Positions 8,651 to 52,610 of a stretch of 64,000 nt of DNA are shown piece by piece; within the stretch, counting starts at the first letter, position 1, and each line of letters opens with the position of its first letter. A program made the translations under genes and the position numbers. Under the pieces are notes generated by a model that saw only the letters and a list, made by a program, of their open reading frames with translations, ran no database searches and had not been told where the DNA came from. The stretch is from Ceratodon purpureus (Eukaryota > Streptophyta > Bryopsida > Pseudoditrichales > Ditrichaceae): contig CM026422.1 in the NCBI GenBank assembly GCA_014871385.1, positions 10,602,896 through 10,666,895 on the forward strand, read 5' to 3'.

Positions 8651-10567
8651 TGCTACAAACAAAAGAGAAACAGCACGCTTGATACACAACTAGATCACAC
8701 TAAACCAAAACTAAAGGCCGCAAAGTCACTGACGAGCTCTCAAACTGGATCACTCCAAACCACATCCGAAGCAGCAAGCTCAAGAGCTCTCAAAGACATG
8801 TGCATTGGTCTCTCCCGGAGTTGCAGCTGCATTTAAGCTAAGTCAAAGACGAGAGAGGCGGTGCTTGCAAGGGACCAGCTTGAATGTAGTTGAGCATCAA
8901 CATGATTATAGCTGCGACACCTGACATGGCTCTGCACCTTTGAGTTTAATCAGACCAGTACCTGAGACATGGAATTGATGGATTGATGTCCACCTTTCGA
9001 CATTTGATGAATGGCCGCTGATCTTGAGGAGCAATGTACTGAGTCATGTCGCTTTGACACCATGATGTCAGATTGATCACCAGTTGCAGTGCCTGGTGTG
9101 TGTACCTGGTACTAGCCTGACTCGTCCCAAGTTTTGGCCCATAATGCACGGTAGAAATTTTGATCTTCACTTGGTATAGATATCAGTTATAAATACCACG
9201 GAGCAATCTATCTACTTGTTCTAGGTGGTGTCTGTCTGTGGTCCTGTCTGAGTCTCTGAGACATTGGTTTGTTCTCACACTTCGGAAACTGTGAATTGGT
9301 CCAATCCTGTGGCAACAGCACTTTTTACTTAGTACCCAGTTACCTGTGACAGCCCAACGACCTCCATAAAGATAAATAAGTGCTTCATTCAAAGGGTCTG
9401 GCCTGGACCTATCATATCTGTGGTTGCCGATTTCTTTTCTAAATTGTGAGGCAATGGAAATACTTTCCTTTTGTTTGGTAGATGGTAGTTTTCAGCCCTG
9501 GCTTCGTGCCGATGGGGGCTTTGTACACTATTCTTTGCAATGAAATTCCTTTCTTGCTTCAAAAAAATAAATAAAAAAATACTTTCCTTTTATTATGAGT
9601 TGCACCAGTAAACTGTACTACATTACCAGCTTAGAGATATCATGAATTGTATCAAGCCTCCAGGATGAAGTACACATATAATTCTACTTATGATCACTGT
9701 GCATGATCAAGGAGGATGGTCCCGGGTCATAATGCATCTTCAAATAATGTGGGTTTCTCAATTGAAGTGTCACACATTGTTAGGGGTTTTTAAATGATGT
9801 AGATAGCTACAAGGAATGTGGTCACACTCAGTAGAATTAAAATGTAGCAGTCCAGTTTGAACCATTATTAACCCTAGTTGCATTTAAAAACGAAGGTACA
9901 ACTTGTAACCATAGTTCCATGTATGGTAGTAGAGAAGGTTTGGCAATTTGTCACCTGGTACTCCTGGCATACCTTATGACAAATATGCTACAGAAAATAG
10001 AATTGAACTCCTTTATAGGCTTGCACTTGGGCAAGCATGATTAAATGCTAGTTTCAGCTTAATTTTTGTTTTTCGTTTTTAAAAAATAAAATTCAATATG
10101 GACAAATGGAGAAACTTCATTGCAGAGAGAAGAAACAAACCCCATCGGATCTTTCTACTTAAATTTCAAGGCCAGTGTCCAGGTTCTTGAAGGATCACAA
10201 ATTCTGCAGCTTGACCCTTCAGACTTACGATTCAAGCATAATTGCAACATTTAAACTCGTAACATGAGACCATAATTGAGAAGAGGTGCAACATGTCCAG
10301 GATACTAACTGCATCATTATGCTACACAGGTAAATGACACTTGGCGTTCCATTCAATGTCATTTTTACACCTTTTTTTTAAATATAAACTATTTCCTTCT
10401 TACTGAGTGCCACAAACAAGCAAGTGTCTACACGCGGATCTGGGTGGTTCTGACGTTCCAACCGAGCCACCGTAATGGGTCCTAGAACCAACTAATAATC
10501 TCGTGGAAATCATGCTAATGAAAGCGGATGCACTTGCGGAAGAATTACCATGAACTACCATGTGAAA
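8651..10567. other. Intergenic with retroposon-like tails
   Basis: No gene seen. Around 9480-9590 the + strand reads like the 3' tail of a LINE or SINE: GGGGCTTTGTACACTATTC, then TTGCAATGAAATTCC, then an A-rich run. A similar CTGCAATGAAG tail in the opposite orientation lies near 10075-10140, and another near 45935-45965. These are short, have no coding part and are weakly supported. Confidence 0.3.
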
Positions 10568-14593: not shown

Positions 14594-15880
14594 TTATTCA
14601 TCCTCTTTTCTTAGATCCTCTAACATCTCCATCACCCTCTGCTCTTCTCTGTTATCTCTATCTCTAACTATGGCTGAATGATTAGTAAGTATATTCAAAA
14701 TATCTTTAAACAAAGGTCTTTTTGAAGGATTGTCATCCCAACACCTTGTAACAAGCTCATGCATCCAATCTTCCACATACTCCGGCAAATCTGGTCGTCC
14801 ACCATTGAGAACAATGCTATAGTCCCTAAGTGGATGATTCTCAAATGGAAGTTTACCTGTCAATATCTCATAACAAGTCATTCCATAGGCATACACATCC
14901 GCTTCTCTTGAAAAGACCTCTGGTCTCTCATGGATCTTCTTATCCTTGATGGCTTGCAATATCTCTGGTGCCCTCCAAAATCCCGTGCCAATTACTCCAA
15001 TCGAGCACTCAAAGTCTGCTACATAAATGCCTCCCTTTCTATACAACACATTAGACGATTTGAGGTCTCGGTGAACTATGTTGTGTTCGTGCAACCAATG
15101 CATCCCCTTTGCAATTTTATACATGATCATTTCACCGCCCTCTTTTGTAAAAGGTCCTCTATCTCGACCAATTTCCAACATTCGTCGCTCAATATCACAA
15201 CGAAGATCTTCATGTTCTTTTTGCATTAGAAAAGCAAACCTCCCATCCTTCAATAGTACACCACACTCTACGTCACAAAAATATCTTCTGTTCCTAGGAT
15301 AATTTGGTTTTGAATACGCCTCTCCTTGATATTGTAAGTATCCATGGGGCCACTGCACCTGCAATTGGCGCAAGGAAGTGCCCTTCTTAAACACCTTCAC
15401 CACCCACTCTATTCCCTCTTTCAGATCATTGTCATTGTGATATGGATTTGCCCAAATAACACGGGCATGATAGAGCTCTGCCTGCCCGCCCTCGGCAAAC
15501 TTCTCCCCCATAACCAACTCACCCGAACTTCCATATATATATCCAGGCCTTCCAGGATACGGTACTCCCAAGTGATAACCAAAGGTTTGGAAGAATTGAC
15601 CCCAAATGGGATGCGATTGCAGTTCCCTGAACACCTTCCTGTTGTCCGCCTTTTCCTTATCGTAAAAGTTCTTGAAGAGTTTGTGAAAGATGCTGCGATC
15701 CAACTTCACCACCTCACTCCAGTGGCTCTTGGATCGCTCGATGCTCTCCTCAACACTCCTGTCCCTCTCCGTCGAGCTTCCACTGGGTGCAGGATCCGAT
15801 AACTGCGACGCAGAGGTAGTTGCATACTCACCTAAGGTTGTGGAAGCGGTGACATTCTGTGAGCTGCTGGAGGCATCCAT
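14594..15880 (-). CDS. TKL (Raf-like) protein kinase, copy 1
   Basis: Intronless, 428 residues, and about the same length as copy 3 at 50544-51833. A Ser/Thr-rich leader (about 1-50) and a helical segment (KLFKNFYDKEKADNRKVF) precede the kinase domain. The glycine loop is atypical (FAEGGQAELYHA). The lysine is in WVVKVFKKG, the catalytic loop is HRDLKSSN, and the activation segment runs from VADFECSIG to FWRAPEIL. DVYAYGMTCYEILTG and RCWDDNPSKRP complete the C lobe. The usual DFG is DFE: the metal-binding Asp is kept but the Gly is lost. I chose the ATG at 15880 because copy 3 starts at the matching codon (MEASSSSQNV); an in-frame ATG 30 bases upstream also exists. Substrates are unknown. Likely soluble, with no membrane segment. 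Confidence 0.9.
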   Translation of the reverse strand: MDASSSSQNVTASTTLGEYATTSASQLSDPAPSGSSTERDRSVEESIERSKSHWSEVVKLDRSIFHKLFKNFYDKEKADNRKVFRELQSHPIWGQFFQTFGYHLGVPYPGRPGYIYGSSGELVMGEKFAEGGQAELYHARVIWANPYHNDNDLKEGIEWVVKVFKKGTSLRQLQVQWPHGYLQYQGEAYSKPNYPRNRRYFCDVECGVLLKDGRFAFLMQKEHEDLRCDIERRMLEIGRDRGPFTKEGGEMIMYKIAKGMHWLHEHNIVHRDLKSSNVLYRKGGIYVADFECSIGVIGTGFWRAPEILQAIKDKKIHERPEVFSREADVYAYGMTCYEILTGKLPFENHPLRDYSIVLNGGRPDLPEYVEDWMHELVTRCWDDNPSKRPLFKDILNILTNHSAIVRDRDNREEQRVMEMLEDLRKEDE

Positions 15881-16686
15881 CCTGCAACGTCTCGAGCCTG
15901 ACAGTTGCACTTCCTTGAAAGTGGTGGCTGTATATTGCCTGGATTCGCGCTGGTGCTGGAACTCGCGAGCTATTCCTGCCGACCTTTAAGTGCTTAAAAG
16001 CCCAAGGCGTTATGGAAAGACGGTGTTAACTTTGCGGAATGTAGGAATCAAACCGACCAAACCTGAGTTTATTCCGATGATCTACTCACCTCAACTTATG
16101 CCGACTAAAACTGAAAAACAGAAACCTAGAATTTCAACTACCCTAGGTGCAATAATCTTCACACTTGACGCAAATCTCTGCGCATGGATGCTTCCTCGCA
16201 GGGATCGTGGCTAGCACGAGTATACGATGAACTAGAGCTCAAGAACCAGAGATAGAGAAAGCAGGAAAGTTTAAAGGAAATCTGAGAAACGGACGAGAAG
16301 GGCAATACCGAAGTCTTTAGCAGAGGCACTCCTCGCGGCGACGGCGTAGCCCACGACTGGTATATTGCGGTGAATCACAAACTCTTCTCAGTCAAGTCTG
16401 GGCAGGTAGGGTTTGAGAAACTAAGGTCGAGTTGCTGTTGCGGCACACTACTGAATGAAACCCAGAGTAGGGCGGAGCTAGCTTGTGCGAGCGGGGAAGT
16501 TGGGACAGGCCAGCCGTAGCAACAGTGCAATATATTCTATGTAGATAATACAGAACCAGAATCCGAATATGCCAAATTGTACCCCACCCCCAGTCGCCGA
16601 CTGATTCTACGTAGATGCGGATCATGAACAATACCACAATTACATATGTTTCTAGATTGCACTACCCTTTGGCTGGTAGCAGCTAG
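15881..16686. repeat. Kinase 5' flank, shared with 51834-52610
   Basis: About 700 bases upstream of kinase copy 1 are nearly the same as the DNA upstream of copy 3. Shared blocks include GCGTTATGGAAAGACGGTG, CTTCCTCGCAGGGATCGTGG and CAAGAACCAGAGATAGAG. The kinase promoter and 5' leader therefore lie inside the duplicated unit. The pseudogene at 37756-39017 lacks it: homology stops at about 39074. Confidence 0.75.
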
Positions 16687-18819: not shown

Positions 18820-21800
18820 CTACCTCCTTCTTAGTGAGCCATCTTGTTCACCTCTGTCTCTATGTTTGTCACAAACCCATGCTATCCCACCTTTCTGGTC
18901 AGACTTAGTTGTGTGCACCATCTGAGTCAACTTGAACATTCTCTGTATGCCACCTGGTGGGCATTTCTTACCCAAAATCTGAACCAACCAAGCTCTAGCT
19001 TCTTCATTATCCTGAAGGTTGATATATGGCTGCTTCTTCAGTTCCTCAGGAAGACACTCAAGTATGTCACCTCTTGGTTGGGCCAGATCGAGTAGCCCGG
19101 GAGTGTCGAGAATGGTTGCAAACTCTCTCGTCAGATCGGGCACCATACTCCCCATTCCAGCAGTTACATGAGCTCCCACCTTCAGCAGCATGACTGATAT
19201 GGTAATCCCCCAGTACATCACAATTCCAAATCTCCTCGTTTGATCATTGCCAATGTCAACTTCACAGCCAGATTGATTCTCAACGATGTGAAAACCATCC
19301 CTGTGCTCGCACATGAAGTGAAGCTGGTAAGACTTCAAGCCCGGTACCATTTTGAGAAGGATGCGTTTCCCACTCATCCCAGCAGATTCCATGATATAGG
19401 GCAACTTGGGTATGTTGGAATTGTCCAAATGCGACAAACACTCCATCAAGCTGTCAATGTTGGAACACACCCTTGAAGTTAATTTTTCCTGGAAACCTAT
19501 GATGTTGCTCTCCAAGTCATCAAATCTCTTCATCACCTCCTTGTGATTGTCTTGCATTTCCTTGTGATTGTGTTGCATCAAACGCTTCATTGAGTCAAAT
19601 CCATCGGCCATGAACCTCTTCATGGAGTCTTTGCGAACCAGGTCACTGTTAGAGTGTTCCCTTGCAGCAGGTGCATTTGAATTTTTAATGTCACTTCTTG
19701 CCTGAAGTTCCAGATTCAAAACCTTGTCCAACTCCATCACCATTTGTCTTCGCCTTTGCAAAAACTCCAGCCACTCTTCATCTCCCAAAAGCTCTTTGGC
19801 AGAGATAGATCTGCATATACCCTCTTCATCCACCCAAGATGGTGAATATTTGAAGTCACCAGCCCGCAATACTTTCTCCACAAGTCTCTTCCTAGATATA
19901 CATTGTAACTTGTTGGTGTCCAAAGCATTTGCCACAGAAGACGGGAATATGATGTGTTCTTCAAAAATCACTCCAGGACACCCCAATGTTGGTGTCTGTC
20001 GAAGATCATTCACACAGTCGAAGATCATCTTCTGCACACGACGATTCTCAGAATCTCCACCTCCACAGCATCGTGAGATAATGTTGATCGAATCTTCTAT
20101 GTCCTGTAAAATGAAAAGCTGAACACCATTGACAATAAACGATATACCCGTGCAAAACAGCTTGAACGTTTTTGTATTTGAATAAAGCCTGTATGTTTTG
20201 GTGCGGAACTTGTTGCGCAAATACACCTGCACGTGGACATTGCAAAGAATGAGCAACTGAACATTGGACAATAGTTTAGAGGATTCAAAGAATATACCAA
20301 TAACAAACTTCAGCTATCCATATAATCTTATGAAACATGCATATGAAAACCTACAAGAACAGAAGCAAACATTCAAATCAAAAGACGGAAAATTTATGAA
20401 CCTGTAAGCGTGGGAAGAATCCCCGTGTTAGTTTGGTGATGCTCTCATCTGCTGTTTTCAATTGCAAGCCTACATATGTGAATTTTTCAGCTGATGAGCC
20501 AAAAATCTCCTCCCAATTTGTTGGAATTGGATTACCATCCAACAACGATGGTATCATGATGTTCTTGTCACCATCTTCGTAACAAATCTGTAGCCTTGTC
20601 ATCATCATCAATATCTCCTCAAAATGAGCTGCATACACTGTTTCCCCATCCACAACTAGTTCCTTGAAGTCTTGTTGAGATACAATTCCATTTGTTGCAA
20701 TGGCACCTTTGTGATTCAACTCGGAGCAGTTGAATAAAATGTGGCCTATGATGTTTTGGCAAAACCAATGGGGATCAAGGATCACCATATCAATCTCCTC
20801 AAAATACATGATGTGACCACCATTGTGTAGGGACATAGCTACATGCTTCTTGATCTTCTCCAATATTCCATTGCCAACATCCTTTAAAGATCCAAGACTA
20901 GTGGCCTCTTTAGAGAGAGATTGGGAGAAAACATCCCATTTCACAAAGGGCTTCCTGGAAGAATCTTCACTCCATTTCATCATATTGGATTGAAAATCTA
21001 CACATGCCTTTAAGATTTTGGGCAAGTCCGATGACATCCTCTTCAAATATTGATGTACATGTCGCTTCAGCTCAATGGCATCATTGTAAGACGCTCTTGT
21101 ATTCTCCATCTCAAAAAACTCCAAATCTTTGTCAAACTCAAGGAATAGTTTGAACTTACCTTTGAGTTTATTGATAATGTGCTTCATTTTTTGCCTGAAA
21201 AGCTTTTCCTTACCTTTATCAACTCCCCACAAATCATGATGTGTCATGATGATGGTAACATGGGGAAGGTAAGATTTTGACCTTCTTGTGTTAGAAGCAA
21301 TAAAAACCAACCAATAAGAAATGTCTCTCTTCAATTGACTCATTTGCTCTTTCTCATGGAGGCATTGGACAGCATCACTTGGATTGCAAACAATGAAGTA
21401 GAAGCAAGAGTCTCCACTTGAAGATCGATTTGGAAGCATCATATCATGGAAGGTATGATATTCTTCTTGGCCAGCCATATCCCACAAACTGATGCTCATC
21501 TCATCCCATAGTATTTTGTGGACTTCAATTCCCCGCGTTCGCTCTTCTACACTTGACAATGGAGCTCGTTTTATTGGCAAAGAAGATTTTAACATTATAT
21601 TTCTCAACCTTTTGGGAACGAAAGAGCCCATTCTATTCTTAGTCCTTACTTGATTTGAAAGTGAATATTGATGATCATTAGTCACTCCGCTCTTGATTCC
21701 ACTTGTGCTCAATTGTTGAACATCCTTCCACCTCTGGCAAAGAGTCGTTTTACCTACATCAAATAAGTTTGTTACCACACATAAGTTAGACCATCTAATT

Positions 21801-23604
21801 TAAAAAATTCCAAAAGCCCACTCATCGATGTCTCGAATATGGATCAATGAACTTCTACTTCACAATTGTAATTCTTCAATATCAACCATTTTTTACTCAT
21901 ATATGTACTTCAATTAATCTAAATACCAAAATCCTCTTTATAATCATGAAATAGCAATTTCAACTTCTAGATATTTTTTCTTTCAAATTTCTCAATAGTC
22001 TAACTTTTCAATATTCTTCATCAAATAATAGATATTTTTGCTACTTTAGTAGTTCATAGAAATAATATTTAAAACAATAACCATTATCCATTTCATGAAA
22101 TTTTAACACTAAGATCAAAGTGATTGTAATTGCCTGCTTTGGGGTTGCCACAAAGATAGACTCGAGCAGAATTTGGAGGCACATGCTCCATACTTCGAAT
22201 TGCCTTTTCCAACTCTTGATCAATCGTTTTGTCTCTTCCACGCAATTCAGCATACACAACCTCTGCATCCCCATCTTTTTCCAAACCAGTTTCTTGCAAT
22301 TTAATCTCCCTCAAGGAATGATTATGCAAGAGCATGTCCATAATCATCCCCAACACATCTTTCCCTCCAAGTCTCTCACAATGTGTCAAATCCAAGGACT
22401 CCAAGGATGTATTGGACCGCAGTGCACTGAAGAGCATTTCAGCATACTCAACATCATTCTCACTGCCTCTTTCCAAAATTCTCAAGTTGCGTAGACCTAA
22501 GTGGAGCAAGGTGGTGTTAGACCGTAGCAAAGTGGTCAACTGTTCCATAATCTCTTTTCCCTGATAATTGGAGAAGCCTAAGGTGTGGAGGTGGGTATTG
22601 GGTTGTAGTCCACTGGCAGCATCCGGAACCAAAGCTCTTACTAACGCTTCCATCTCCTCCACTCCCAACCTTGTATATCCATCGCACACAAGCTTTTCAA
22701 GGACGGTGTTGGTGCGCAGTGCTTCACCAATCCTGCCAAAACCTTCACTGTGGGGGGAATTATCCAATCTCGATATATGCAATACTTGGAGTTTCTTGTT
22801 GTGACCAAGTGTGTCTGCCAGCTCTATAACTTCATTGTCTACTCCAGATGTATATAACTCTGTGAGGACATTGGTCGGAGTCTTCAAATACCTATTCAAC
22901 TCCCTCATTTCACTTTCCTCGTGGCCCGCCCCCTCCGTCCTTGACGGAACTCCGAGATAATTGAGCTGGAACTCACGGAGGACTTGATTTTGGAGCAAAG
23001 CATCCACCAACACTTTTACAATTGCTGCATTTGCTGGCTGACGATATCCAAATATTTTAACGCCGCCCGTTTGCAAAGTACTGTTTGGACCAAACGCGCT
23101 GAAAATGGCTTCTGCATCCGAGACTGAGAGTTCAGATAAGCGGATTTGCCGAAGGAGCAAAGACTTGAGAGATGAAATGGTCTTCATACACTCGCCTATG
23201 GCCCTCAAAGTCTCCTGTGAAGCATACTTAAAATTAACATGAACATCCTCCACCTGTGAACTGGTCGAAATTGTGCGCACAAAATTACTCAAGGAGAGTG
23301 AAAAACCCTCCCCCATGATGCCATCCTTGTCTGTCACCTCTAGATAATCATTATTTTTTATAACCTCGTCAGAAGTTGAGAGAGTGTTCTTATCCTTATC
23401 CTCCACCTCCTCATTCCTTCCGTTCTTCATTTTCTCTACCTCGTGCTGCCTTACAGTGATAACAATTGATTTGGGCAACTCGAAAGTGCACTCGAGCGGT
23501 ACACATCCCCGGTTGCAGGGAGAAGGACATGCTTCACGTGCACCGCTCACCTCCCCACCGGGAGAGGAGGGCGTCATAAAGGTGCCTGGAGATGACCCCG
23601 CCAT
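18820..23604 (-). CDS. LRR-Roc-COR protein, TORNADO1-like
   Basis: Three exons, 23604-22134, 21753-20402 and 20226-18820, join in frame to 1,409 residues (Arabidopsis TRN1/LOP1 is about 1,380). Residues about 120-480 hold ribonuclease-inhibitor-type leucine-rich repeats (SLESLDLTHCERLGGKD and similar). The Roc GTPase follows: P-loop GNPKAGKTT at about 485, switch region WDMAGQEEY, and THHD in place of NKxD. A COR region follows (LDPHWFCQNIIGHILFN), then a C-terminal domain with a coiled-coil-like KRLMQHNHKEMQDNHKE and FMCEHRDGFHI. TRN1 controls leaf symmetry, venation and cell fate in angiosperms; the role here is inference. The ATG at 23604 (MAGSSPGTF) is used; the frame is open upstream but with only a TTG. 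The first intron splits the P-loop and has a GC donor (CAG/GCAATT). No break is seen. Confidence 0.88.
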
Positions 23605-25491
23605 GACGTCGCAGTCCTGCTCAAGTAGTTTGTCAGATATCTTGCTGGAAACGAATTCCAATCACCTCCTCAACGTCCACATCAATCCCTCAGCACCTAG
23701 CTTTGATCTGCACCTGCTTACCTGATGCCGATCTCCTATGTATTTCCAGCAGTATTGCAAGATTAAACTTCCTCCTTGATCTAGTTTCTCAGTAATGTGG
23801 CCACGGTAGACTGCACCTGCACCTTGGAATTAGCCCTTCGACAAAGATTATACTCTTCCGCCAGCTTGCAGCCTACGAAGAAGCTGCAACTGATAAAGTG
23901 GCATAAATTGTTAGAGGTTTCAAAATTCACATGCATCCAATTGCCGCCCTCATCACCCCACCCTATAAGTCAAAAGCGCCCACGTTATAAACTGAAACGG
24001 GAAACAAATTTCACATTAAATATGAGTAATTATCATAACCACCATGTTGACACAGGTTTACTTCGGACTGTATACCAAGAGTATTCACGAGCTCCACTTA
24101 AGGGATCAGATTGTGGAGTCACCTGCGAAGTACACGATAAACCCTCGCACCGAACAGAAAACGATTTCGCTGTGGTACTGCACACCAGCACACATGGCCT
24201 GATTCATCAAGACGCATATGCAGGAATAATATTAAAAATCAATATTCGAAGACCAGCTTCATCATGCTCTGTTTCCAAAACCCTCGCTCATCTCTCCGAG
24301 ATCCAAATTTTGATCCCAAAATAGGTGCACATGTTGGAGGCCGCATCATACAAGGCTTCGTCAACCTCATTTTCAGAGTTACATGTTACTAACTGAGATC
24401 TGAAACAAAGCCAGCACAGTCCTTTTGAGTCCTCGGTGCAAGTAACACATGTCAGCCAATAGTTTCGCAATGTTGTAAGATCTCAGAAGCACTTGAACCA
24501 CACTTCGGCACCCTCAGCAAAAGCTCAAAACAACCGGCTTGTGGAATATCATTCTGGCTGATCAACTAATGATCCCCAAACAACAGTTTCGCAGGACAGA
24601 GAAAACTTTAACTACAGCATGGTTAGGAATGGGTTAGAATAATAATCATGGTGAAATCACGGTAGTCAGCTTCTATATTGATCGGTACTTGCTACACTGC
24701 ACCAAGCATGCTATGAGCAGATGCTAGGTTCCTCTCCAGTAAATGGGGCAAGGTTCCCTGTGAGAAAATAGAATTATCTCAATAGCGCTGCTCTGATCTT
24801 CACATCAGAAAGCTCAAAAATCTTCAAAGACGTCTCGCACGTTAAAAAAACAATACAAGAGCAATCAGCACAAGACGTCTAACAATGAACTGCCAATGAA
24901 CTGGCATCAAGATGAACAACCCTTGTATCTCCGTATCAGATGCCAAGCCTAACCTAAAAAAATCCATCCAGCCTGAATCTTGAAAAGATAGACCAAAATC
25001 TCAGCAAGAGAGGAAGAGTGCAGACGAGAACGCTTCAAGCCATTCAACAAGTGTACAGACCTCTGGGGAGCATTAAACGTAGTTAGCTGGCTGTCTCGAC
25101 CAAACATTTAGCTATGGCGTCGACTAGGTCCCAAACGAGACACTGACGTTTCCTGAAGAAGAGGATGTCGATACCTGCAGAATTGATCCGGCGTTGCTGA
25201 AGCTGAGAGCGACGCCCCAAGAGAGATCCGAGCATGCAGTGCAGAAAATGGGCCAGACTCAGTCCACCACCAAATGAAACATTATTACAGAAAAACTCTC
25301 GCACTACCTTCCCTTTGCAATATCGCAACCCAACTTGGTGTGCACCGTGTACTACTGTACAGTACTGTACAGACCGAGTGGTAATGTGCAGAGAAGTCAG
25401 GGGGGCCCATGTGACCGAGCACCTGCACTAAATAATTTAGAGTATTCATCATGGCTTTGCAGCAATCCAGAGGCAATGAGTGGAGATGTGA
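23605..25491. other. Intergenic, upstream of the Roc-COR gene
   Basis: This is probably the promoter and 5' leader of the Roc-COR gene followed by about 1.5 kb without a supportable gene. Short minus-strand frames at 25083-25328 have acceptor-like sequences near them but no recognisable protein. A GTACTGTACAG repeat lies at about 25354-25374. Confidence 0.35.
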
Positions 25492-25500
25492 CTTTGTTAG
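25492..25500. repeat. 9-bp target-site duplication, left
   Basis: CTTTGTTAG abuts the left terminus and recurs exactly at 35502-35510. Nine bases is the usual duplication length of Mutator-like elements. Confidence 0.97.
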
Positions 25501-25809
25501 GGGTCTCTCTATCTACCCCTTACGAGCGTTGCACCCAGCCCCTCTCCGGGCAGGGGCAGCGTCTCGCGGGGGCAACTCTCCCCGACCCTCCCCGGACCCC
25601 GACCCACCCCGATCCCCGACCACGGGCGACCCCGCCCGACCCCGCCCGACCCCGCCCGACCCCGTGCAGCCCCCCCCCGCCCGCGCCAGCCCGGTCTCCC
25701 CCGCCCGCCCGGTCCATCCACCGCGCTGGGTTTGTCATCCCCCGCCTCGTCGTCGTCGTCTTCCCATCCACCGCGAGACGCCCCCCGTCGTCGTCTCCGC
25801 CGGGGCGTA
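25501..25809 (+). repeat. Left 309-bp terminal inverted repeat
   Basis: Begins GGGTCTCTCTATCTACCCC. Very GC-rich, with four 10-base units of the form CCCGCCCGAC at about 25628-25665, then C-rich runs and a CGTCGTCGTCGTC tract. Compared with the right terminus it differs at TIR positions 13 and 20 and in two C-run lengths. Confidence 0.96.
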
Positions 25810-26248
25810 GTGGCTGTGCTGCGGGAGCTGTGTCCCGAGCAATTGATGGGGGATCACAGGGCGATGGAGGTCTGAAGAAGTTAGGCTTTCAGGGGAGGGC
25901 AGGGGTTACGTTGTAGGCGACGTGGTGTAGCGTGGGGAGGGTAGAAGGCGCAGCGTGTTTTTTCTGAGAGGAACTAGAGTTCAGGGGTCCGTAGTTGGGG
26001 GATGTGTGGGGTTTAGGGTGATCGAAGTGCGTGGGGTTTAGTACATGGCGGTGCAGCGTGAGGGAGAAGGGGATCGTAGCGAGGGGGTGGTTGTGGCGAC
26101 TCTGCGGAAACTGCCGGTCTAGGGTTTCGGGTGTGGGGGCACAATTACCTTGGACGGCAGAATCGACCTAGAGAAGCGGGGCGAGGGCAGCTGCGGCGCT
26201 TGGGGGGAGGCGTCCATATCGGTCAGAGCTTTCGGAGGAGACGCTGCG
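25810..26248. promoter_or_regulatory. Left subterminal region, likely promoter and leader of the + strand gene
   Basis: A G-rich, gene-free stretch of 440 bases between the left terminus and the first ATG. It is unique in the window and not repeated at the right end. A promoter here or in the terminus is inferred from gene orientation and from MuDR; no TATA box is obvious. Confidence 0.4.
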
Positions 26249-29200
26249 ATGGCATCGTTGTCGGCGCTGGTAAGTGGAAACCTCGGAGCCATTTTCTCTC
26301 CTGTCCTATTGGGTGTCCTGGGTTACTGTGTCCTACTTCCCCCTATGCTTGATTGTGTTTTCTCTTTCTTTGCCGTCGTTTGGGGAGTTCTGCTAGAAGC
26401 TTAGGGTTACTTTTTCTGTGGCTGGGTTGGGGTGGTGATGCCTGTAGATCGCCTCGCCCGAGCCACCGGACCTCTCCCGCTTAACTCCGCAGGACGCCTG
26501 CAAGGTGTTGAAGGCGCGCTCCACTGTCCTGGTAGTGAAGGAGCTGTCGGAGGAGCAGCAGGACGCCATCGCCACTGCCGAGGCCGGCATAGTGCCAGGG
26601 GTAAGTGCTCGAACCCTCTCTCTACACTGAAATCATAATTTGTACCTAGTACTTTTTCAATCCACCTTCGACATCCTCTACTGCCTCTAATCTCCGTGCT
26701 TCATTTCTTGGGATTCTGCAGGTGCAAATCAAGGGGAAGTTCGGCATGGAAGACGTCATACTGTGCTAGAGCACATGGACCGGGAACGACCCAAACCGTG
26801 ACGCCTTCAGCCGGAGCAAACACGACTACCTCATTGTCGAAGTGAACACGCTCTGGAGAAGGCAGAATGCTGGTGCACAAGGGACTGGGAAAGCAAGGAT
26901 GAAGATACCCTTTTTTTGCAGGTACTGTAATACAGATATGGTAGACAAAGCTCACCTGGGCTTCCACCGGCAGAAGGACCTCTGTCCATACTACAACTCC
27001 CGAGTCCACGGCCCGCTCAAGATATTCCCAAGCCGAGGTACTGCTGGAAACGGGGAAGCCAGGGCGGTCTTCCGAAAATACAACATCAAGGTCCCCTGGC
27101 AGATGCTGGGACCGCATGCAAAGCCACGGGGACCGTATGGGAGGGAGCCAGGAGACGATGAGGATGGCGGCTTTTCTTCGGGCGAGGAAGGTGGTGACGC
27201 AACGGGGGAGGAAGGGGAGGGGGAGCAGCAGCAAGCGATGGAGGAGGGCGGGGGCAGCGGCGGCCAAGAAGACGAGGGGCAGGAGGAAGAAGTTCGAGAG
27301 GAACGGGAGACGATCGACTTGTCCAGCCCTGATACACCAGGGCCACGATGGAGGGACACGGAGCCGATTGCCACTCCCTCGGCTGGGAAGAGGAAACGCT
27401 GCGAGGAGGGGCCCACTGTTGATGAGCTTCTCCAGATGAGTCGGGAAGAGCGGGAGGCGATAAGGAGGGAGGGGGAAGAGGCGCTGCGGCAAGCACAGTG
27501 GGCGGGAGCTGGTGGAGATGGAGGTTCGGGGAGCAGGGGACAGGCGGGGCGGGGGCTAAGACCGAGGGGGAAGTCTCCTGCAGGAGGAGGTGATGGATCG
27601 GCAGGGAAGAAGAAGACCGTCCGTCGCCGTTTGGGGGAAAAGCTTGGGGGTACGCCCACGTCGGGGACAGGGGCCGCTGGGGGGGTTAGCCAGAGGACGC
27701 GGGGCGCGACTGCAAACGCTGCAGGAGGATCCGGGGCAAGGCCGCGAGTTCAGGTGGTTGGGAGCCGGTCTGTGGGGGGGAAGGGTCAGGGAGAAGCGGG
27801 CGGGAGCTCGAGCCGGCAGCGTGGTCAGTCGGGAGGGAGCAATGCAGGCGGTGGTAGTGCGGGAGGCGCTGCGGCTACGCCCTTGGGGAAACTCGGCAAA
27901 CGACCTGGGCACCAAGCAGCGACGGGAGTGGAACGGATGAGCGCCGCCGGCTTCAGAGTGGACACAGCGAAGCGGGGGGGAGTTGGCTCACAGCCCGCGG
28001 ACCCGGAAGCACATGCGAGGCAACAAAAGAAATACGAGGCAATCGACGAGGCCGTGAAGCTGTTTCCCGACGTAGATTGGAGGACGGAGCCAAAGCCACC
28101 TACACAAGTGCCGGGACTGTATGCTCTACAGGAGTACACTCCTGAGATATTACCCCCGGAGTCCATGCTCGACCAGGGCCGTGCGTCTGCCGAGCTTCGT
28201 CGGCTGCTCGCCGAGGGGAAGCTGCACAGGAGGGTAGCGGGTGCGTGGGGATTCCTCAGTTTCGACCCCGAGCTCACGGTGAGTTGGAGGGGCTCGGCAC
28301 ATTTTTTTATTTTTTTTTTTCCGCTTAGTTCAATCAATTTTCTTCCTGCATCGTGCTGTTCTTCTTCTCCGATCGTCAATTCTGTGGTTTTCTTCCTTTT
28401 TGTCCTGCAATGTTAATCGGCCCTTCTCCTCTCTTCCTGTTATCTTCTATTTTCCCCCTTCGATCCTCCTCGGCTGTTCTCTTCTTCCTTCATTCTTTCT
28501 AATTGATTTTTTTTTTTTTTTTTTTTTTTTTTCTTCTTTTAAATTTTCCCTTTTGTTTCATTTGGTTTTCCTCTTTCATTTCACATTCTGAATGTCTTCT
28601 GCGCTGCACTTTGATCTCGGTCAGTCATGTCCTCCCATTTTCCATTTTTAATATTTTTTTAATTTTTTTTTCGCTGTATGAGCAGGACTCCATTCCCATC
28701 GCCGTGCTGGATGCCGTGGAGAACTGCAGGGAGGTCTTCGTGAGCAGGTCCGCTGACGGGATCGAGGAGGAGCTGGAGGCCTTCAGTGAGCACCATGGGC
28801 TGTATTTGGCGTACTTGGCAAAGAAGAAGGCGTGGGAGGACTCACGGCTGCAGGTGGAGCGTAATCGGAAGGCTCACATCGCAAAGGAGATGGCCGCCTA
28901 CGACCTAGAGTTGAGTCTTCAGGCCGAGCAGAAGGAATGGGCGTGGAGTCCGCTCTTCTCGGAGTTCATACTCGTGCCCCTCCCGCCCTGCCTCCATCGT
29001 CCATTTGAACATAGTGAGGAGGAGTTCCAGGGGCTCATTACCTGGCTACAGAGGGAAGGCTACGCCATGGGAGACCGTAACTCTCCGCCGCACATGGCCC
29101 GAGCTCTTAAGCTCTTTGCCAAGAGTGAGTTCGGAGCTCGCACCCCTATGCTTTGCCCTGTCCGTGGCTTGAGCGACAAGACCCTCAGAGACCGAACTCA

Positions 29201-29912
29201 GCAGGTCCTATTCGCCATGGAGGAATTAATCCGGGTGGGGAAAATATATTTCCCGACCCTAGACACAGGCGGTGAGGACTTTGAAAAATTCAGAGAGGTT
29301 CTTGACTGTGGGGATAACATTGGGGACCAGGTTGAGAAGTTTCGGGCGTGGCGCAGAAATTCCTTCATTCGGGCCTGGTGCGACTCTTTGAGGAGGGAGG
29401 AGTCCCACATTCTCCGTGATTTGTGGGTGAAGGGGGAAGGGGTGGATCGGGAGGGATGTGCATCGGTTTTCACGAGTGTGCTACTGCTGCGGGAGAACAT
29501 AGATCTCGGCTATGTCTTCGGGTCCATTGAGGCGACGGGGTTATGGCCGAGGGGAGGTGATGCGTTTTTTGATGCAGCGAAGGTACTGCGCCGGGAGAGC
29601 GTGAGTGCGTGCTACACTAAGCTCGCTTATTGGAATGTGAAGGACGGCCTGGAGGATTTGGACGACATCAGAGCTTCGCAAGTCCTCTGTACGTTCGACG
29701 CTAGCAGGTTCAGTGGAGAGACGTCGGGATCACCAAGCAGATTCAGCGCCGAGGGAGGATCACCTCTACGAATGGGGTTGCTTACGGATGGTCAGGCCGA
29801 GCAGGAGACTACATCTGCATTGGGAGGGGGGGGCTGGGGTCAGGTGGAGGATGGGGAGCCAGAGGCGGTGTCCGTGAGTCCCGTCGTTGTTATGCCAGGG
29901 CAGCCAGTGTGA
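26249..29912 (+). CDS. Unrecognised zinc-finger protein encoded by the Mutator-like element (helper-gene position)
   Basis: Four exons, 26249-26269, 26448-26600, 26722-28278 and 28686-29912, have canonical GT-AG junctions and every intron is in phase 0. The joined frame has 985 codons, broken once by TAG at 26767-26769 (codon 74; CAG would differ by one transition). An ATG at 26899 just after it would still give a protein with the zinc-knuckle-like CRYC-x12-H-x5-C (residues about 124-146). A low-complexity middle follows, acidic (about 165-215) then Gly/Arg/Ser-rich (about 250-400). Then comes a folded-looking helical C-terminal region of about 400 residues (CLHRPFEHSEEEFQGLITWL; SFIRAWCDSLRREESHILR). 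I do not recognise the family. By position it corresponds to mudrB of MuDR, but there is no visible similarity; capture of a host gene is another possibility. Intron 3 contains a 30-base T-run. Confidence 0.75.
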
Positions 29913-30240
29913 CAGGGATTAGGACAGACAGGAGGACAGACGTTCATAGAGTTCGGAGATAGAGAGTGTAAGTTAGACAGAAAGACAGATTGTAATACAG
30001 ACTGTAAGGCTACACACTAACTCAGAATTGACGATCAGAGTTGCTACACTTGTGGTGCATAACGCTTTCGTTGTTTCCCCCTATTGTGAAGGGTATCGTT
30101 TTTTGGAATGAATGCAGCAACCTCTTGTGTAGAAACTCGTTCGTGTAGTTCGTTCTTGTGGAACTTGCTGATTCAGGTGGAACGGCCAAAGGAGCAGAAC
30201 CATCGGGCTCAGAATTCCGGAGTACAGTCCTGAAAAAATT
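29913..30240. other. 3' region of the + strand gene with clustered GACAG motifs
   Basis: Directly after the stop codon, GACAG occurs repeatedly (GACAGGGATTAGGACAGACA, then GGACAGACG, AGACAGAAAGACAGATTG). The same motif clusters elsewhere in the element, at 31333-31378 and in the transposase introns. Confidence 0.5.
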
Positions 30241-30753
30241 AAGAAACAATGAGGTGAAGAGTAATAAGAAAAAAAGAAAGGAAAAAGGGGTTGGGGAAAA
30301 AAAGAAGAAAGAAAAAATTAAGATAAAGAAAGAAAAAATAATGGAAAGGAATAAGTAAAGAAGAAATTAAAGAGAAAAGGATAAAAAAAAATAAAAATGA
30401 GAGAGGAATAAGGAAACCAGAAAAAAATAAATAAATAAAAAAAATAAAAACATTCGGAAGGGTATGGTGGACGGAAAAGAAAAAGGGGGGGATAAATAAG
30501 AGAAAATGAGTGGGAAAGGAAAGGGGAAGGGGACTAAATCAAAAGATTAAGAGAAATAAGAAAATAAGAATGGGAAAGGAGTGGTGAAAACATTCAAATG
30601 AAAAAATGAAGATAAATAAAAAAGATAGAGGAGGAAGAACTGGAAAACAAAAAAACAAAATAAAAAAGCCAAAAAATGAAAAAAAAGGAACGGAGCGGAA
30701 ATAAGAGTTGGGGAAGAGGATGCATGGGAGGGGAGGGTATTGGAGGAGAAAAG

Positions 30754-30790
<37 letters not shown>

Positions 30791-30868
30791 TATATAAAGG
30801 AAGGGAAGAGAGTGGAAATAAGAGTGGGGGAAGGGACCATGGGAGGGGAGGGTATTGGAGGAGAGAAG

Positions 30869-30911
<43 letters not shown>

Positions 30912-31212
30912 AAAGGAAGGGAAGAGAGTGGAAATAAGAGTGGGGGAAGGGACCATGGGAGAGGAGGGTATTGGAGGAGAGAAGGAAAAAAAAAAAAAAA
31001 AAATAAAATAAAAAAAAAAAATAATGGAAAGGAAGGGAAGAGAGTGGAAATAAGAGTGGGGGAAGGGACCATGGGAGGGGAGGGTATTGGAGGAGAGAAG
31101 AAAAAAAAAAAAAAAATAAAATAAAATAAAAAAATGGAAAGGAAGGGAAGAGAGTGGAAATAAGAGTGGGGGAAGGGAGCACGGGGGAAGGGAGGAAAGG
31201 AAGGGAAAAGAA
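30241..31212. repeat. Homopurine minisatellite between the two convergent genes
   Basis: About 1 kb of nearly pure A/G on the + strand. From about 30680 it is organised as five units of roughly 105-115 bases. Each has a G-rich core (GGGAAGAGAGTGGAAATAAG, then GTGGGGGAAGGGACCATGGG, then GGGTATTGGAGGAG) followed by an A-run of about 15-35. The Lys-rich and Phe-rich open frames here come from the repeat and are not genes. Confidence 0.9.
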
Positions 31213-31495
31213 TACAACTACGCAGAGACGATTGAGACTGTCTTGTTCCTACAGAGGAAAGTAAAGAACATGTTCGAACACATGCCTTTGGCATTAGGTA
31301 AGACCATCAATATCCAGAGCAAGGATGTCGCCACCAAAGGACAGACAGAAAGACACACAGTAAGACAGAAAGGATGACAGAGAACTTCACCGCGTGAGGT
31401 TTTTGAAATAAATTATATAGAAAACTGGCTTAGTTACATGGATCCCGCAAATAAAACAGGGTTTCAGTCTGTCCTGGAGAACAATAACCCTAAGC
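31213..31495. other. 3' region of the transposase gene
   Basis: Gene-free. Holds another GACAG cluster at about 31340-31378 (GGACAGACAGAAAGACACAC, then TAAGACAGAAAGGATGACAG). Likely contains the 3' untranslated end of the minus-strand transposase. Confidence 0.4.
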
Positions 31496-34400
31496 TCATC
31501 GACCTCTACCTCTACCTCTACCACTTGCACCACCTCTTCTCCTCCCTGTTTCAGAGCAAGCTTTGAATCTTCGTAGATTTTTCGGACCAGGCCCAACTTG
31601 GAATGAAGGCTGGGAAAGAGGATGCATGAGTCCAGCATCGGACTTCACCTTGAGTGAGGCTATCCTCCCCTTAGTCTCATGTAATGCTGCTAGAACATGA
31701 TGTCGTAGGTTTACGTTGTCCACAGCTAAAGCTTCAATCTCCTCCCACACTGCTCTGATGTCTGATAGCATCTTCACAGGGTCCTCAGCCTTCACCACCT
31801 GAGTCTGCCTGTCCTGCTGTCTGTCCTCCGGGACATCTGCAATGGCAACCAACCCTGCAGGAGCATAGCCAACTTGGATAGTTCCCCTCAAAGAACCTGC
31901 ATACCTGATAATGTCACCAGGGTGCACCTCCTGGTGAATCATTCGAAACACTTTGATAACGTGCTTGCAGATGTTCCCTCTCATTCCCAAAGGGCAGCTG
32001 CACTGGGCCCAGTCTGAATTTGGACTTGTCACTAACCAAATTGAAGGGAAATTAGTCTGCGACACAACATAAGCAATATCCTCCTCTTCGTAGATCATCA
32101 CATGCTCATCCGGTATCTCTTCAGCCCTGATGACAGCATTAGCTACCACTCCTTCAGCTTTGCCATTTTTAATGAAGCCATACAGCTTGCACTGGACAGC
32201 ATACCAGTAATGAATTAAGACATCCTTCACCAGATGGTATATTAACCAGTCCACTCGACGTCCATCAAATTTAGCCCTGGAAGACCTTAGAATACCCTTC
32301 AGGTTGGCATGGTAGCTTTCCACAGCAGCATTTGTATCCTGGTTCGCATGGGGGATATTCCTGTACCCCTTAACCCACATCTCAATCTTTGGAATCCAGG
32401 TTTTCTCAAAGTAATTGAAGAATGCCTTGGCCTGGGGATACTTAGCTTTCAAGAACTCGAAGCGTTCCTCTGCAGCCTTCACAGCCAGCTCTCCCTGCAG
32501 AACTCCATTCCCATACATAAGATCTGCACAAGCAGCCAGAATCTCCGCCCTAAGGTAGTTAGCCTTAATCTTTTGTGTTGCATTCTCCAACCAGGCCTTC
32601 CTTGTATGCCAAAGACACAGCAGAATCCTGACGTCGTCGTTCTCCTTTCCCTCTATTGGATCAGCTTCAGGCCAAACCTTCCTGGAAATTTTACACGAAG
32701 TCAGTGCTTGCAACTATACCGTGACCTCCTGTGTGTCCTAGAGCCTGTCCTATGAGAGTAATACTTATTGAACCTTGAAGAGAAGAAATTGTTTACTCAC
32801 CGAATCGCATTGAGTTCAGCCTGGTCATTGTCAACAAGGAAGGATGTCGGCTTCCAGTCAGGCTTCACAGCAATGCAACGTTCTTTCAACTCCTGCAGCC
32901 AGGGTACGATGTCCACTTCTCTGGATTTTCCTTGAATCGTGAATGCAACTGGTATGCCCTGTTCCCACTCGTCGAAGACCATTACTGTATACAATGGGTA
33001 CTGCCAATGGGAAAAAAGGAAATGAAGTGAGGGATAATGTGGACAGCCTATAGCAAGTAATAAGACAGGCACTAGGTCAGACAGTAAGACAGGTCACAGT
33101 ATGGAGGGAGTACCTTAGAGGAGTCAGTCGAAAAGGTTGCATCCATAGACAACGCCTTGCGATGACCATGTCTAACCATCATTTCGAGCTGCCATTCAGT
33201 TTGAATGGCCAAGCAGAAGGGGTCTTCCTCTGCTGGTGGTGGCTCATTCAGCTCTATGTTCCCATACTCCTGGTAATGATACCAGTCCTTGGGATTCTCA
33301 TCTGTCCACATCCTCACACTCATGGCATCTTTTGGATGCTTCTCCCACAACTCTTTAGCAAGTTTATTTGCAAGATTGTAAACATCAGATGGCATGATGA
33401 AAGTATCTCTAGTTGGTGGTATGTTATTCTGAGCACATCTCATCACTTCAGCTTTATGATCAGCCATTACCTGGGCTGCTGACTTCCCTGACCTCAATGT
33501 GTCTACAATCCACTGCTTTGTGGCATGAGAGAGATGTCCGGACAGGCCTGCACGCTGGCTTCCAAACTGTGCACCATGACAGGCCTTCCCTTCCTTGTTA
33601 GTATGGTCCATACAGTGAAATTGAATTGTACACAGAGTTTCATCTACTAGGAGCTGCTTTGCAACGAAATTGCATTGGCAACCCCTCTTCATAGACATCC
33701 CAGCTTGAACTTTCCCAACCCTGGTCTTCCTTTTTGGCTTCACAGCAGCATCCAGGAGAGCCTGAGCCTGTCTTAAGCTATTTTTTGCCTCCTCCAGCCT
33801 CTTCTGTTCCTCTAGGTCCTCCTCCGCAGCTGCCACGTTTAGGTCAGGCAACGGTGCTTGCTTCGCCTTCTTCCTCGGTTTGTGGATGGTTGCTGCATCC
33901 TTGGCAGCCTTGTCTACGATCTTCTGAGCCCGTTGGAGGGCCTTCCGCTGGTTTGTTGAATTTTTTTTCTGTGTCCTCACATGGGCGAATACCTTCTGCA
34001 CTTCTGCCTTGTACTTCTTGGTGTAGTCCTCGGGCCCATACTGGCACCAGTACCTGGTAAGACAGACATTAGGACAGACAGTAGTACACGGAAGTCAGTG
34101 ATCGTAGCCAGCACTGAAACTATCATAGCGATGTAGAATAGGTCTGAAGTGAAGGAGAGCACGAATAAGACAGACAGGGAGAGTTTGGATATGGTCACGT
34201 ACCTGACTTCCTGAAGAGCTGACTCTGCTCTGATCTGTTTTCTATCATCTTTCTTGATGCACTTCCGTGACTCCTCCCAGAATACACAAGGGTGTTGCCG
34301 ACTTGACATCTCTCCATCCAAGAAATCATCAAGGCGGTTCCATGGAATGGTGGCCTTATTAGAGACACGACGTTTCCCCTTACCCTGATTTGTGATTTTC

Positions 34401-34972
34401 TCCCACTTCAGATCTGTCCGGTTGAAGGGCCCAGCCGGTGGGGTCTGCACAGATGCTTGCACTTTGTGCAGCATCTTCCTCCAGGAAGGTCGTTTTTTCT
34501 TCTCTGCAACTTCAGCATCGAAAGCCTTGATGTCTTCCACACTACACTTCTGCTCTTCATCTTCTGACTGTAATCGATGATCATTGTCTGTCCTGGCCTG
34601 TCCTAGAGAACCAGAGGTATCACCTCCTCCACAGCCCTCCACGTCTGTCCTGGCCTGTCTTGGAGCAGCAGGAGTATCACCTGCCCCACGGCCTCCAGCG
34701 TCCCCAGACCAGTCCGGACTGAGGCAAACAAAATCCCAAGGGAGATCGTCATCCCCACCCGCTAGGTTCACTGCAAAGCTCTCACCACCGTGATCTGCAG
34801 GAGCATGACAAACATCGGCTACCCTCTCAATGCCGTCGTCCTTCCCTCCATGTGATAGACCGATCTGCTCAACAGCCCTGCCCTCTCTCAGATCACCAAT
34901 GCCATCACACCCACCCTCGACCTCTAATCTGCAGCCACTGGAAAGCACTCCGGAACCTGCCCCCGCCATCAT
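31496..34972 (-). CDS. Mutator-like transposase (MuDRA type) with SWIM zinc finger
   Basis: Four exons on the minus strand, 34972-34203, 34053-33114, 33000-32801 and 32681-31496, with GT-AG introns of 149, 113 and 119 bases. They join to 1,031 residues with no stop. The first 280 residues are acidic and low complexity. A conserved region (CQCNFVAKQLLVDE, then IQFHCMDHT) precedes the RNase H-like DDE core. The first Asp is in SMDATFSTDSSK (about 561), the second in LVDNDQAELNAI (about 627), C-x2-H is in CLWH (659-662), and the Glu is in TNAAVESYHANLK (about 758). The SWIM finger is CSCPLGMRGNICKH (about 864-877). The C-terminus is Arg/Gly-rich (GRGRGRGR). It would cut and paste the element in the nucleus by binding the termini. 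All key residues are present. Confidence 0.92.
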
Positions 34973-35192
34973 TCAACCCCCTAAACCATGAAACCAGAAA
35001 TACAAGAAGCAAACAACCACATAATCATCTCCACCAACACCGTCGACATTGCACTCATGCACCTTCTTCTCCCCTCCAGCAGCACAATCCGTAGAGGAAC
35101 TCCACGCACAACCGAAGCGATGGACGTCGCTTCACTGCTCTTCATGGCGCCGGCACAGTAGCCGTCGCAGCCGACGCCGGAATAATGAGGGG
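34973..35192. promoter_or_regulatory. Right subterminal region, likely transposase leader
   Basis: A gene-free stretch of 220 bases between the transposase ATG and the right terminus. It would hold the 5' leader, and perhaps the promoter, of the minus-strand gene. No clear TATA box was seen. Confidence 0.4.
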
Positions 35193-35501
35193 TACGCCCC
35201 GGCGGAGACGACGACGGGGGGCGTCTCGCGGTGGATGGGAAGACGACGACGACGAGGCGGGGATGACAAACCCAGCGCGGTGGATGGACCGGGCGGGCGG
35301 GGGAGACCGGGCTGGCGCGGGCGGGGGGGGGGCTGCACGGGGTCGGGCGGGGTCGGGCGGGGTCGGGCGGGGTCGCCCGTGGTCGGGGATCGGGGTGGGT
35401 CGGGGTCCGGGGAGGGTCGGGGAGAGTTGCCCCCGCGAGACGCTGCCCCTGCCCGGAGAGGGGCTGGGTGCAACGCTCGTAGGGGGTAAATAGAGAGACC
35501 C
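35193..35501 (-). repeat. Right 309-bp terminal inverted repeat
   Basis: Reverse complement of 25501-25809. Read inward it begins GGGTCTCTCTATTTACCCCC. It has the same four GC-rich 10-base units, and a C-run of ten where the left has nine. Open frames across it are composition artefacts. Confidence 0.96.
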
Positions 35502-35510
35502 CTTTGTTAG
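35502..35510. repeat. 9-bp target-site duplication, right
   Basis: CTTTGTTAG, identical to 25492-25500. The flanks joined without the element give a continuous unique sequence in which I recognise no gene. Confidence 0.97.
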
Positions 35511-37755: not shown

Positions 37756-39017
37756 TCAATCCACCAAAGATCTCTTGTCCTTTTCTATAACACTTCGAAC
37801 ATTAGGTGAATGAGTAGCAAGTATGCCCAAAATATCTCTAAATGAAGGTCTCTTTGAAGGATTGTCTTCCCAACACCTCCTAACAACCTCACGCATCCAA
37901 TCTTCCACATACTCCGGCAAATCTGGTCGTCCGCCATTGAGAACAATATCATAATCTCGAAGTGGATGATTTTCAAATGGAAGTTTCCCTGTCAATATTT
38001 CATAACAAGTCATTCCATAGGCATACACATCCGCTTCTCTTGAAAAGACCTCCACTCTTTCATGGACTTTCTTCTCCTTGATGGCTTGCAATATCTCTGG
38101 TGCCCTCCAAAATCCTGTACCTATTACCCCAACTGAGCACTCAAAGTCCGCCACACAAATGGCACCTTTTTTGCTTATTAAAACATTCGATGCTTTGAGG
38201 TCTCGGTGAACAATGTTGTGTTCATGCAACCATTGCATCCCCTTGGCAATTCTATACACAATCACTTCACCCTCTACTTTTGTAAAAGGTCCTCTCCCTT
38301 TACCAATTTCCAACATTCGCCGCTCGATATTACAACGAAGATCTTCCTGTTCCCTTACCATTAGAAAAGCAAACCGCCCATCCTCCAATAATACACCATA
38401 CCTTACATCACAAAAATATCTTATTCCCCTAGGATAATTAAGCGTTGAATACATCTCTCCTTTAAATTGCAAGTATCCATGCGGCCACTGCACCTACAAT
38501 TGGCGCAAAGAAGTGCCCTTCTTAAACACCTTCACCACCCACTCTATTCCCGCTTCAGATACTTCTCATTGTCCTTTGGATGCGTCCAAATAACACGGGC
38601 ATTATAGAGCTCCGCCCGCCCACCCTCCGCAAATGGCTTCTTCCCCATAATCAACTCACCCATACTTCCATACACATGTCCAGGCATTTCACGTGACGGT
38701 GTTCCCAAGTTATAACCAAATGTTTTGAAGAATTGACCCCGGGTGGGATGCGATTGCAGTTCCCTGAACACCTTCCTGTTGTCCGCCTTTTCCTTATCGT
38801 AAAAGTACTTGGAGAGTTTGTGAAAGATGTTGCGATCCAACTTCACCACCTCACTCTAGTGCCTCTTGGATCGCTCAATGCTCTCTTCAACACTCACGAT
38901 CCTCTCCGTCGACCTTCTAGTGGGTGTAGGATCCGACAACGGCGACGCAGAGGTAGTTGCGTAGTCGCCGAAGGTTGTGGGAGCGGTGACATTCTGTGAG
39001 GTGCTGGAGGCTTCCAT
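37756..39017 (-). pseudogene. TKL kinase pseudogene, copy 2
   Basis: Homologous along its whole length to the kinases at 14594-15880 and 50544-51833. The ATG survives at 39017, and most motifs survive: HRDLKASN, VADFECSVG, FWRAPEIL, DVYAYGMTCYEILTG. Three lesions are visible. A TAG replaces TGG in the KSHWSEVV region (about 38857-38859). Two bases are lost near 38548 where copy 1 reads CCCTCTTTCAG. A TAG replaces CAG in the RQLQVQW segment (about 38494). The upstream flank shared by copies 1 and 3 ends at about 39074, so the promoter may be missing too. The DFE in place of DFG is already present, so it predates the duplications. Confidence 0.85.
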
Positions 39018-51833: not shown

Positions 51834-52610
51834 CCTGCAACGTCAAGGGCCTGACAGATGCACTTCCTTGAAAGTGGTGGCCGTATAGACGAATTACGGC
51901 GCTGGTGCTGGAACTCGCGAGCTATTCCTGCCGACCCTTAAGCACAGTCGAGCCCAAGGCGTTATGGAAAGACGGTGTTAACTTTGCGGAATGTAGGAAT
52001 CAAACCGACCAAACCTGAGTTTATTCCGATGACCTACTCTCCTCAACTTATGCCGACTAAAACTGAAAAACAGAAACCTAGAATTTCAACTACCCTAGGT
52101 GCACATAATCTTCACACTTGACGCAAATCTCTGCGCATGGATGCTTCCTCGCAGGGATCGTGGCTAGCACGAGTATACGATGAACTAGAGCTCAAGAACC
52201 AGAGATAGAGAAAGCAGGAAAGTTTAAAGGAAATCTGAGAAACGGACAGGAAGAGCAATACCGAAGTCTTCAGCGGAGGCACTCCTCGCGGCGACGGCGT
52301 AGCCCGCGACTGGTATATTGCGGTGAATCACAAACTCTTCTCAGTCAAGTCTGAGCGGGTAGGGTTACTCTCCTCAACCAAGTCGGAGCGGGTAGGGTTT
52401 GAGAAACTAAGGTCAAGTTGCTGTTCCGGCACACTACTGAGCCATACAGAATGAAACGCAAAGTAGGGCGAGCTAGCTTGTGCGAGCGGGGAAGTTGGGC
52501 AGGCCAGCTGTAGGCAAAAATCAATATATTCTGTGTAGATAATACAGAACCAGAATCCGAATATGCCAAACTGTAGCCCACCGCCAATCGTTGCGGAGTC
52601 CTACAGATTC
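51834..52610. repeat. Kinase copy 3, 5' flank and promoter region
   Basis: Nearly the same as 15881-16640, with one extra tandem-like segment at about 52350-52395 (CAAGTC(T/G)GAGCGGGTAGGGTT appears twice). This is the shared upstream region of the two intact kinases. Confidence 0.7.

Follow-up and report, generated by a model that had tools for sequence, protein, structure and literature searches.

A Mutator-like element of the moss Ceratodon purpureus very likely belongs to a long-lived lineage with two facing genes

Is a large moss transposon with two inward-reading genes a complete Mutator-type system, and is its second gene a lasting partner of the transposase or a recent acquisition? These questions are raised by a 64,000-nucleotide stretch of the Ceratodon purpureus (Bryopsida) genome (assembly GCA_014871385.1, contig CM026422.1, positions 10,602,896 to 10,666,895), hereafter the window, in which a Mutator-like element of 10,001 bp occupies positions 25501-35501. 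A first-pass annotation had described the element as complete and young, with a transposase gene (here T) and a different helper gene (here H), in a bryophyte-like genome; the host is indeed a moss. Our analysis indicates that the element very likely represents a two-gene, cut-and-paste lineage of Mutator-like elements that has long persisted in C. purpureus, and that this particular copy is probably not complete.

The annotated structure of the ends was borne out. The left terminal inverted repeat (TIR), on the plus strand at 25501-25809, starts with GGGTCTCTCTAT and contains 10-bp repeats of the CCCGACCCCG type, and the right TIR lies on the minus strand at 35193-35501. These 309-bp repeats are 98.7% identical over 310 columns, with two mismatches and two one-base gaps. 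They are flanked by a perfect 9-bp target-site duplication, CTTTGTTAG, at 25492-25500 and 35502-35510. Since the two duplications match, both ends were assigned to one copy, which answers the concern that the termini might belong to different copies. All nine elements inspected, including three diverged ones read by eye, start with GGGTCTC, and all nine have a 9-bp duplication, perfect in eight and with one mismatch in the ninth (C6_0.82). TIRs with a duplication of about 9 bp, found in nine of nine elements, place them among the Mutator-like elements (MULEs), as do the transposase domain and catalytic residues of T described below. The near-identical ends had also been taken as a sign of recent movement, and as a trend this held: the two end halves of an element show 0-3 differences over about 255 bases in seven of the nine elements, the window element included, and 8 and 12 differences in the two elements with many stop codons. 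However, one of the seven (C4_19.37) carries a stop in its transposase, and the window copy is only 97% identical to its nearest copies in the genome.

T is encoded on the minus strand by four exons at 34969-34203, 34053-33114, 33000-32801 and 32681-31496. It is open throughout in the window copy, as had been claimed, and encodes 1030 residues; the earlier count of 1,031 included the stop codon. Exon 2 carries a Cys/His-rich N-terminal part and the first catalytic aspartate (D560), exon 3 the second (D626), and exon 4 the C-x2-H pair (C658, H661), the catalytic glutamate (E757) and the CxC/CxH residues of a SWIM finger. The CxxH motif is a mark of MULE-type transposases. The MULE domain (PF10551) was matched at an E value of 2.3e-10 and 41.2 bits, compared with a Pfam cut-off of 27.6. 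Four Pfam families were listed for T (MULE, ZSWIM1-3 RNaseH-like, DUF5575_C and SWIM), and no MuDR- or FAR1-type DNA-binding domain was among them. Two of the three splice junctions fall inside stretches alignable with plant relatives. D626, CxxH, E757 and the SWIM residues are conserved in all three diverged elements, and D560 in two of them. No sequence relative of T was found in the PDB at E ≤ 1. T is the DDE transposase of the element, and it would bind the long TIRs and cut.

H is encoded on the plus strand, also by four exons. Exons 1 and 2 (26249-26269 and 26448-26600) are followed by exon 3 (26722-28278), which holds a putative zinc finger of the CxxC...H form, named by eye, and by exon 4 (28686-29912), the conserved C-terminal region; the junction between the last two is supported by a predicted Ceratodon protein (P0032). 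As annotated, the two multi-exon genes read inward from opposite ends, and their stop codons lie about 1.6 kb apart. An A-rich minisatellite at 30644-31185, with 4.7 copies of a 116-bp unit, separates the stop codons; the stretch enclosing it (30230-31215) has a purine content of 87%.

The second gene had been described as a helper different from that of maize, and no named family was found for H. With exon 4 as the query, 16 relatives were found at E ≤ 1, while residues 480-969 retrieved no relative from 7991 candidates, a result that probably reflects the choice of candidates by the length of the entire protein. The pieces of the window copy's H matched no Pfam family. Across 17 H rows, N1221 was matched in two (best E 0.0081) and WH_RGF3 in one (0.091), and both were dismissed as chance matches. 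A PDB sequence search with exon 4 gave a best E of 0.14, and the first H model, in which exon 4 is mostly helical at low confidence (predicted local distance difference test score, pLDDT, 60.5), gave 92 matches in a fold search, none of them at E ≤ 0.001. A 402-residue protein in the European Nucleotide Archive (P0025) is 99% identical to H exon 4 and shares several residues with a sister copy rather than with the window copy.

Evidence for a lasting partnership comes from the rest of the 362-Mb genome. H exon 4 had at least 103 matches, merged to 101 loci (102 of 431 candidates scored), and T exon 4 at least 106 matches at 105 loci (105 of 799 candidates scored). Facing pairs no more than 10 kb apart accounted for 82 of the 105 T loci and 82 of the 101 H loci, whereas shuffling the T positions 500 times yielded on average 0.84 such pairs and never more than 4. 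A genome search with the TIR yielded, among 40 scored hits of 75 candidates, 16 pairs of ends separated by 8.7-13 kb, together with 8 single ends. The 16 pairs were chosen by eye and then tested for genes, and so are not a full count; every one of them contains both genes facing each other, contrary to the possibility that H might be absent from every other full-length relative. No short derivatives were seen by eye among the same 40 hits. Although H is about 50% diverged between families, it can be aligned from exon 1 or 2 through exon 4 in three diverged elements.

The proteins themselves appear to be maintained. When the window copy was compared with three close copies, the ratio of non-synonymous to synonymous change (dN/dS) came to 0.19-0.25 in T and 0.14-0.16 in H. 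In comparisons with the diverged elements synonymous change was saturated, and the non-synonymous distance was 0.16-0.22 for T exon 4 and 0.46-0.50 for H exon 4. As judged from these substitution patterns, both T and H are under purifying selection; the dN/dS values and the conservation of H also ruled out a chance reading frame. Because the facing partnership is constant and selection is purifying, H would be required by the lineage over the long term.

Several observations weigh against this interpretation. No partner within 10 kb was found for 22 of the 105 T loci and 19 of the 101 H loci, which may be due to decay, nesting or unscored partners, and at one T locus the nearest H is arranged in tandem. 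In C3_9.93 the alignment has a different residue at D560, perhaps from an intron read through, and the stop in the transposase of C4_19.37 lies ahead of the SWIM finger. Since the three copies used for dN/dS are about 99% identical among themselves, that test is close to a single comparison. In the same elements, the synonymous distance is 0.062-0.066 for H and 0.021-0.024 for T, a threefold gap that might reflect separate histories of the two halves, for instance through conversion between copies.

A short word shared by the elements may bear on what H does. AGGACAG was the top enriched 7-mer in the window element, with 13 sites compared with 1 in the 54 kb of flanks and a shuffle mean of 2.0 (maximum 6). 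The sites are on both strands between 26301 and 34651, 7 in non-coding and 6 in coding DNA, and start at 26301, 26524, 29921, 29933, 31338, 31469, 31809, 31821, 32745, 34071, 34588, 34598 and 34645. Measured against the same flanks, the three diverged elements have 11, 29 and 16 sites (shuffle maxima 6, 10 and 8), and the word ranks first, first and fourth in them, in the last case preceded by GGACAGA, which overlaps it, and by two homopolymers; shuffle means across the four elements were 1.5-2.1. Non-coding sites number 7, 8, 22 and 9 in the four. Outside the matched coding blocks, these elements align in their TIRs only or nowhere, and since the non-coding DNA can no longer be aligned, its AGGACAG sites are not accounted for by inheritance alone. 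The bases flanking the word vary by family, the core itself being fixed by the way sites were selected. A paired-motif pattern gave 151 hits in the genome, and 59 of the 100 listed are no more than 8 kb from a T or H locus, a space that makes up 0.66% of the genome.

The role of this word is also subject to reservations. The remaining 41 listed motif pairs (of 100) are in other parts of the genome and 51 of the 151 were not listed, and a reversed control of the pattern gave 61 hits compared with 151. Six of the 13 sites in the window element are coding, the density in C3_9.93 is 1.43 per kb outside and 1.27 inside coding blocks, and the sites in close copies are shared by descent. We regard AGGACAG as a candidate recognition word.

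Published work on other Mutator systems allows the moss element to be placed among them. In maize MuDR, which is 4.9 kb in size (PMC2725143), the second gene mudrB is required for Mu integration (PMC8224964) and is reported to be restricted to Zea (PMC2725143). The moss element resembles MuDR in its long TIRs and its two inward genes for a transposase and a second protein, and the TIRs of MuDR drive both genes (PMC8224964). It differs in being 10 kb long, compared with 4.9 kb (PMC2725143), and in that no MuDR-type domain was listed for T; the likeness is one of layout. The first-pass annotation restricted the helper to close relatives of maize, as is reported for mudrB (PMC2725143), but second genes as such occur more widely. 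The second gene of Abermu, ORFR, runs opposite to the first and does not resemble MURB (PMC9168764), the fungal element Mutyl has a second gene, MutB, unrelated to mudrB (PMC6446971), and the Arabidopsis VANDAL elements have extra genes, VANB and VANC, also unrelated to mudrB (PMC10398659). Since second antisense genes are thus known in Abermu and several MULE groups (PMC9168764; PMC6446971), the facing two-gene layout is not new. Like the moss element, Abermu is a large MULE with an opposite-facing second gene (PMC9168764). However, ORFRs from plants that are only distantly related do not resemble one another and may, according to the authors who described them, be unimportant for transposition (PMC9168764), whereas the moss H can be aligned between families and is under purifying selection. 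What is new in the moss lineage is the conserved helper, the selection on it and the shared AGGACAG word. No two-gene Mutator element from a moss was found in the titles and abstracts searched, which were partly the best-ranked matches and included few subscription journals.

VANDAL provides a parallel for the word. It is a Mutator-type element with extra genes, and the targets of VANC are short motifs within the non-coding parts of its own elements (PMC10398659); AGGACAG is likewise a short motif repeated in the element's own non-coding DNA, though it has coding sites too. The two systems differ in that VANDAL TIRs are degenerate while the moss TIRs are long and near-identical, and in that the target repeats of VANC diverge quickly (PMC10398659) while AGGACAG is enriched in all four moss elements compared. 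By analogy with VANC, the single likeliest role of H would be to bind DNA at the AGGACAG sites spread through the element, as an accessory or anti-silencing factor. We propose this role tentatively; its anti-silencing part is putative, and both H models are weak (pLDDT 60.5 and 55.6), which also counts against it.

The main rival for the role of H is that it is MURB-like and needed for reinsertion, with AGGACAG unrelated to it. The facing layout as in MuDR and the requirement for mudrB in Mu integration (PMC8224964) are in its favor, yet it leaves AGGACAG without an account, and we consider it a serious but doubtful explanation. Alternatively, AGGACAG may consist of sites for the transposase or for a host transcription factor while H acts elsewhere. 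The sites occur on both strands and in coding DNA too, and T is present wherever they were counted, as this explanation would have it; the TIRs of the window element, where transposase binding is expected, contain no AGGACAG at all, which argues against this explanation. This possibility, too, strikes us as somewhat unlikely. The moss lineage has copies in which both genes are open, a helper that is under selection and a candidate for a recognition word, and so makes the role of the second gene testable outside maize and Arabidopsis.

The description of the window element as complete probably does not hold. With the acceptor before 26722, exon 3 of H has a TAG at codon 74 (26767-26769, plus strand), where five close copies have CAG (four) or CAC (one). 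Of seven close loci retrieved, two that matched at one end only (C6:86.60 and C6:51.27) were excluded from the counts of gene status. By projected exons, three of the five are open in both T and H, and numerous stops interrupt both copies on C6; with the longer form of exon 3, H of one sister copy has 985 residues and is free of stops. It could be argued that the TAG is intronic, its own AG serving as the acceptor, so that the window copy is fully intact. A model with that acceptor is indeed open, at 969 residues, and the codon ends in AG in four of the five other copies too. However, the 45 bases ahead of the TAG are identical across all six close copies, the window copy included, and score 0.72 bits per codon, whereas windows in introns score -0.5 to -1.3; a score of 0.70 is, however, reached in another frame too. 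In addition, two diverged families can be aligned with H as protein over residues 59-74, and a third over residues 61-74. This alignment at the peptide level argues that the segment is most likely coding and that the window copy's H is most likely broken, and we consider the intronic alternative improbable. The sequence comparison indicates that H of the window copy is very probably dead through one nonsense codon and that the element is probably not complete. Since its H is very probably dead, the window copy would have to rely on H from other copies.

The remaining alternative, that H is a passenger host gene captured recently by one element in the manner of a Pack-MULE, could draw on the lack of a Pfam family or fold match for H and on the fact that the relatives with a named source (5 of 16) are all from Ceratodon, but it is hardly credible and was rejected, because both genes are present in 16 of 16 end-paired elements and in 82 facing pairs and because an H about 50% diverged between families is still alignable through its exons with a dN/dS of 0.14-0.16. 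The capture of H that the first-pass annotation had offered as one origin may still have taken place anciently.

T has relatives among plant genes. A search found 24 at E ≤ 0.001 among 7964 candidates, a set in which shorter moss fragments could not appear. They are 28-33% identical to T, in most cases across about 91% of the query part (one 40%), and the nearest of those found resemble the AT1G60560-type plant SWIM genes, a label taken from one source name (P0016). In the 25 rows scanned, T included, SWIM is present in 25 and MULE in 19. The AT1G60560-type genes thus share SWIM and mostly the MULE domain with T; they differ in that only 2 of the 24 have retained the C as well as the H of CxxH, the other 22 not having both and two of these being wholly or partly gapped there. 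In a tree of the 25 rows, T and the two relatives that keep CxxH are on one side of a 100/99 branch. This suggests that T is near the source of the AT1G60560-type gene family, and the result is a suggestion because T has a long branch, the root is a midpoint root and the rows comprise T and its relatives with no other MULE as a reference. A possible source is thereby indicated for a plant SWIM gene family. In the portions of the literature covered by the search, the only mention of AT1G60560 found was in work on fusion transcripts. It is conceivable, though unlikely, that a moss lineage has a Mutator system of its own in which a helper without detected kin among the named helpers reads an AGGACAG code held through the divergence of families and so shields or activates the element, with T a living relative of the element that was the source of the AT1G60560 genes.

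The elements on C6 stand apart. T exon 4 was free of stops at 16 of 55 scored loci on C6 compared with 39 of 50 elsewhere (Fisher p 6.5e-7). From the locus tag KC19_VG164600, we infer that C6 is the V chromosome, and this sex chromosome looks like a graveyard for the element lineage.

No Rfam match and no tRNA were found, and scans of viral and prokaryote contigs found no relative. The other genes noticed in the window, all on the minus strand, include one of Roc-COR type at 18820-23661, in which COR-A scored above the Pfam cut-off and the Roc and LRR matches below it; the element lies about 1.8 kb past the 5' end of this gene's open reading frame at 22093-23661. Three related protein-kinase reading frames are located at 14594-15985, 37756-38493 and 50544-51842, and a reading frame for a DUF538 protein (E 2.4e-30) at 8183-8689.

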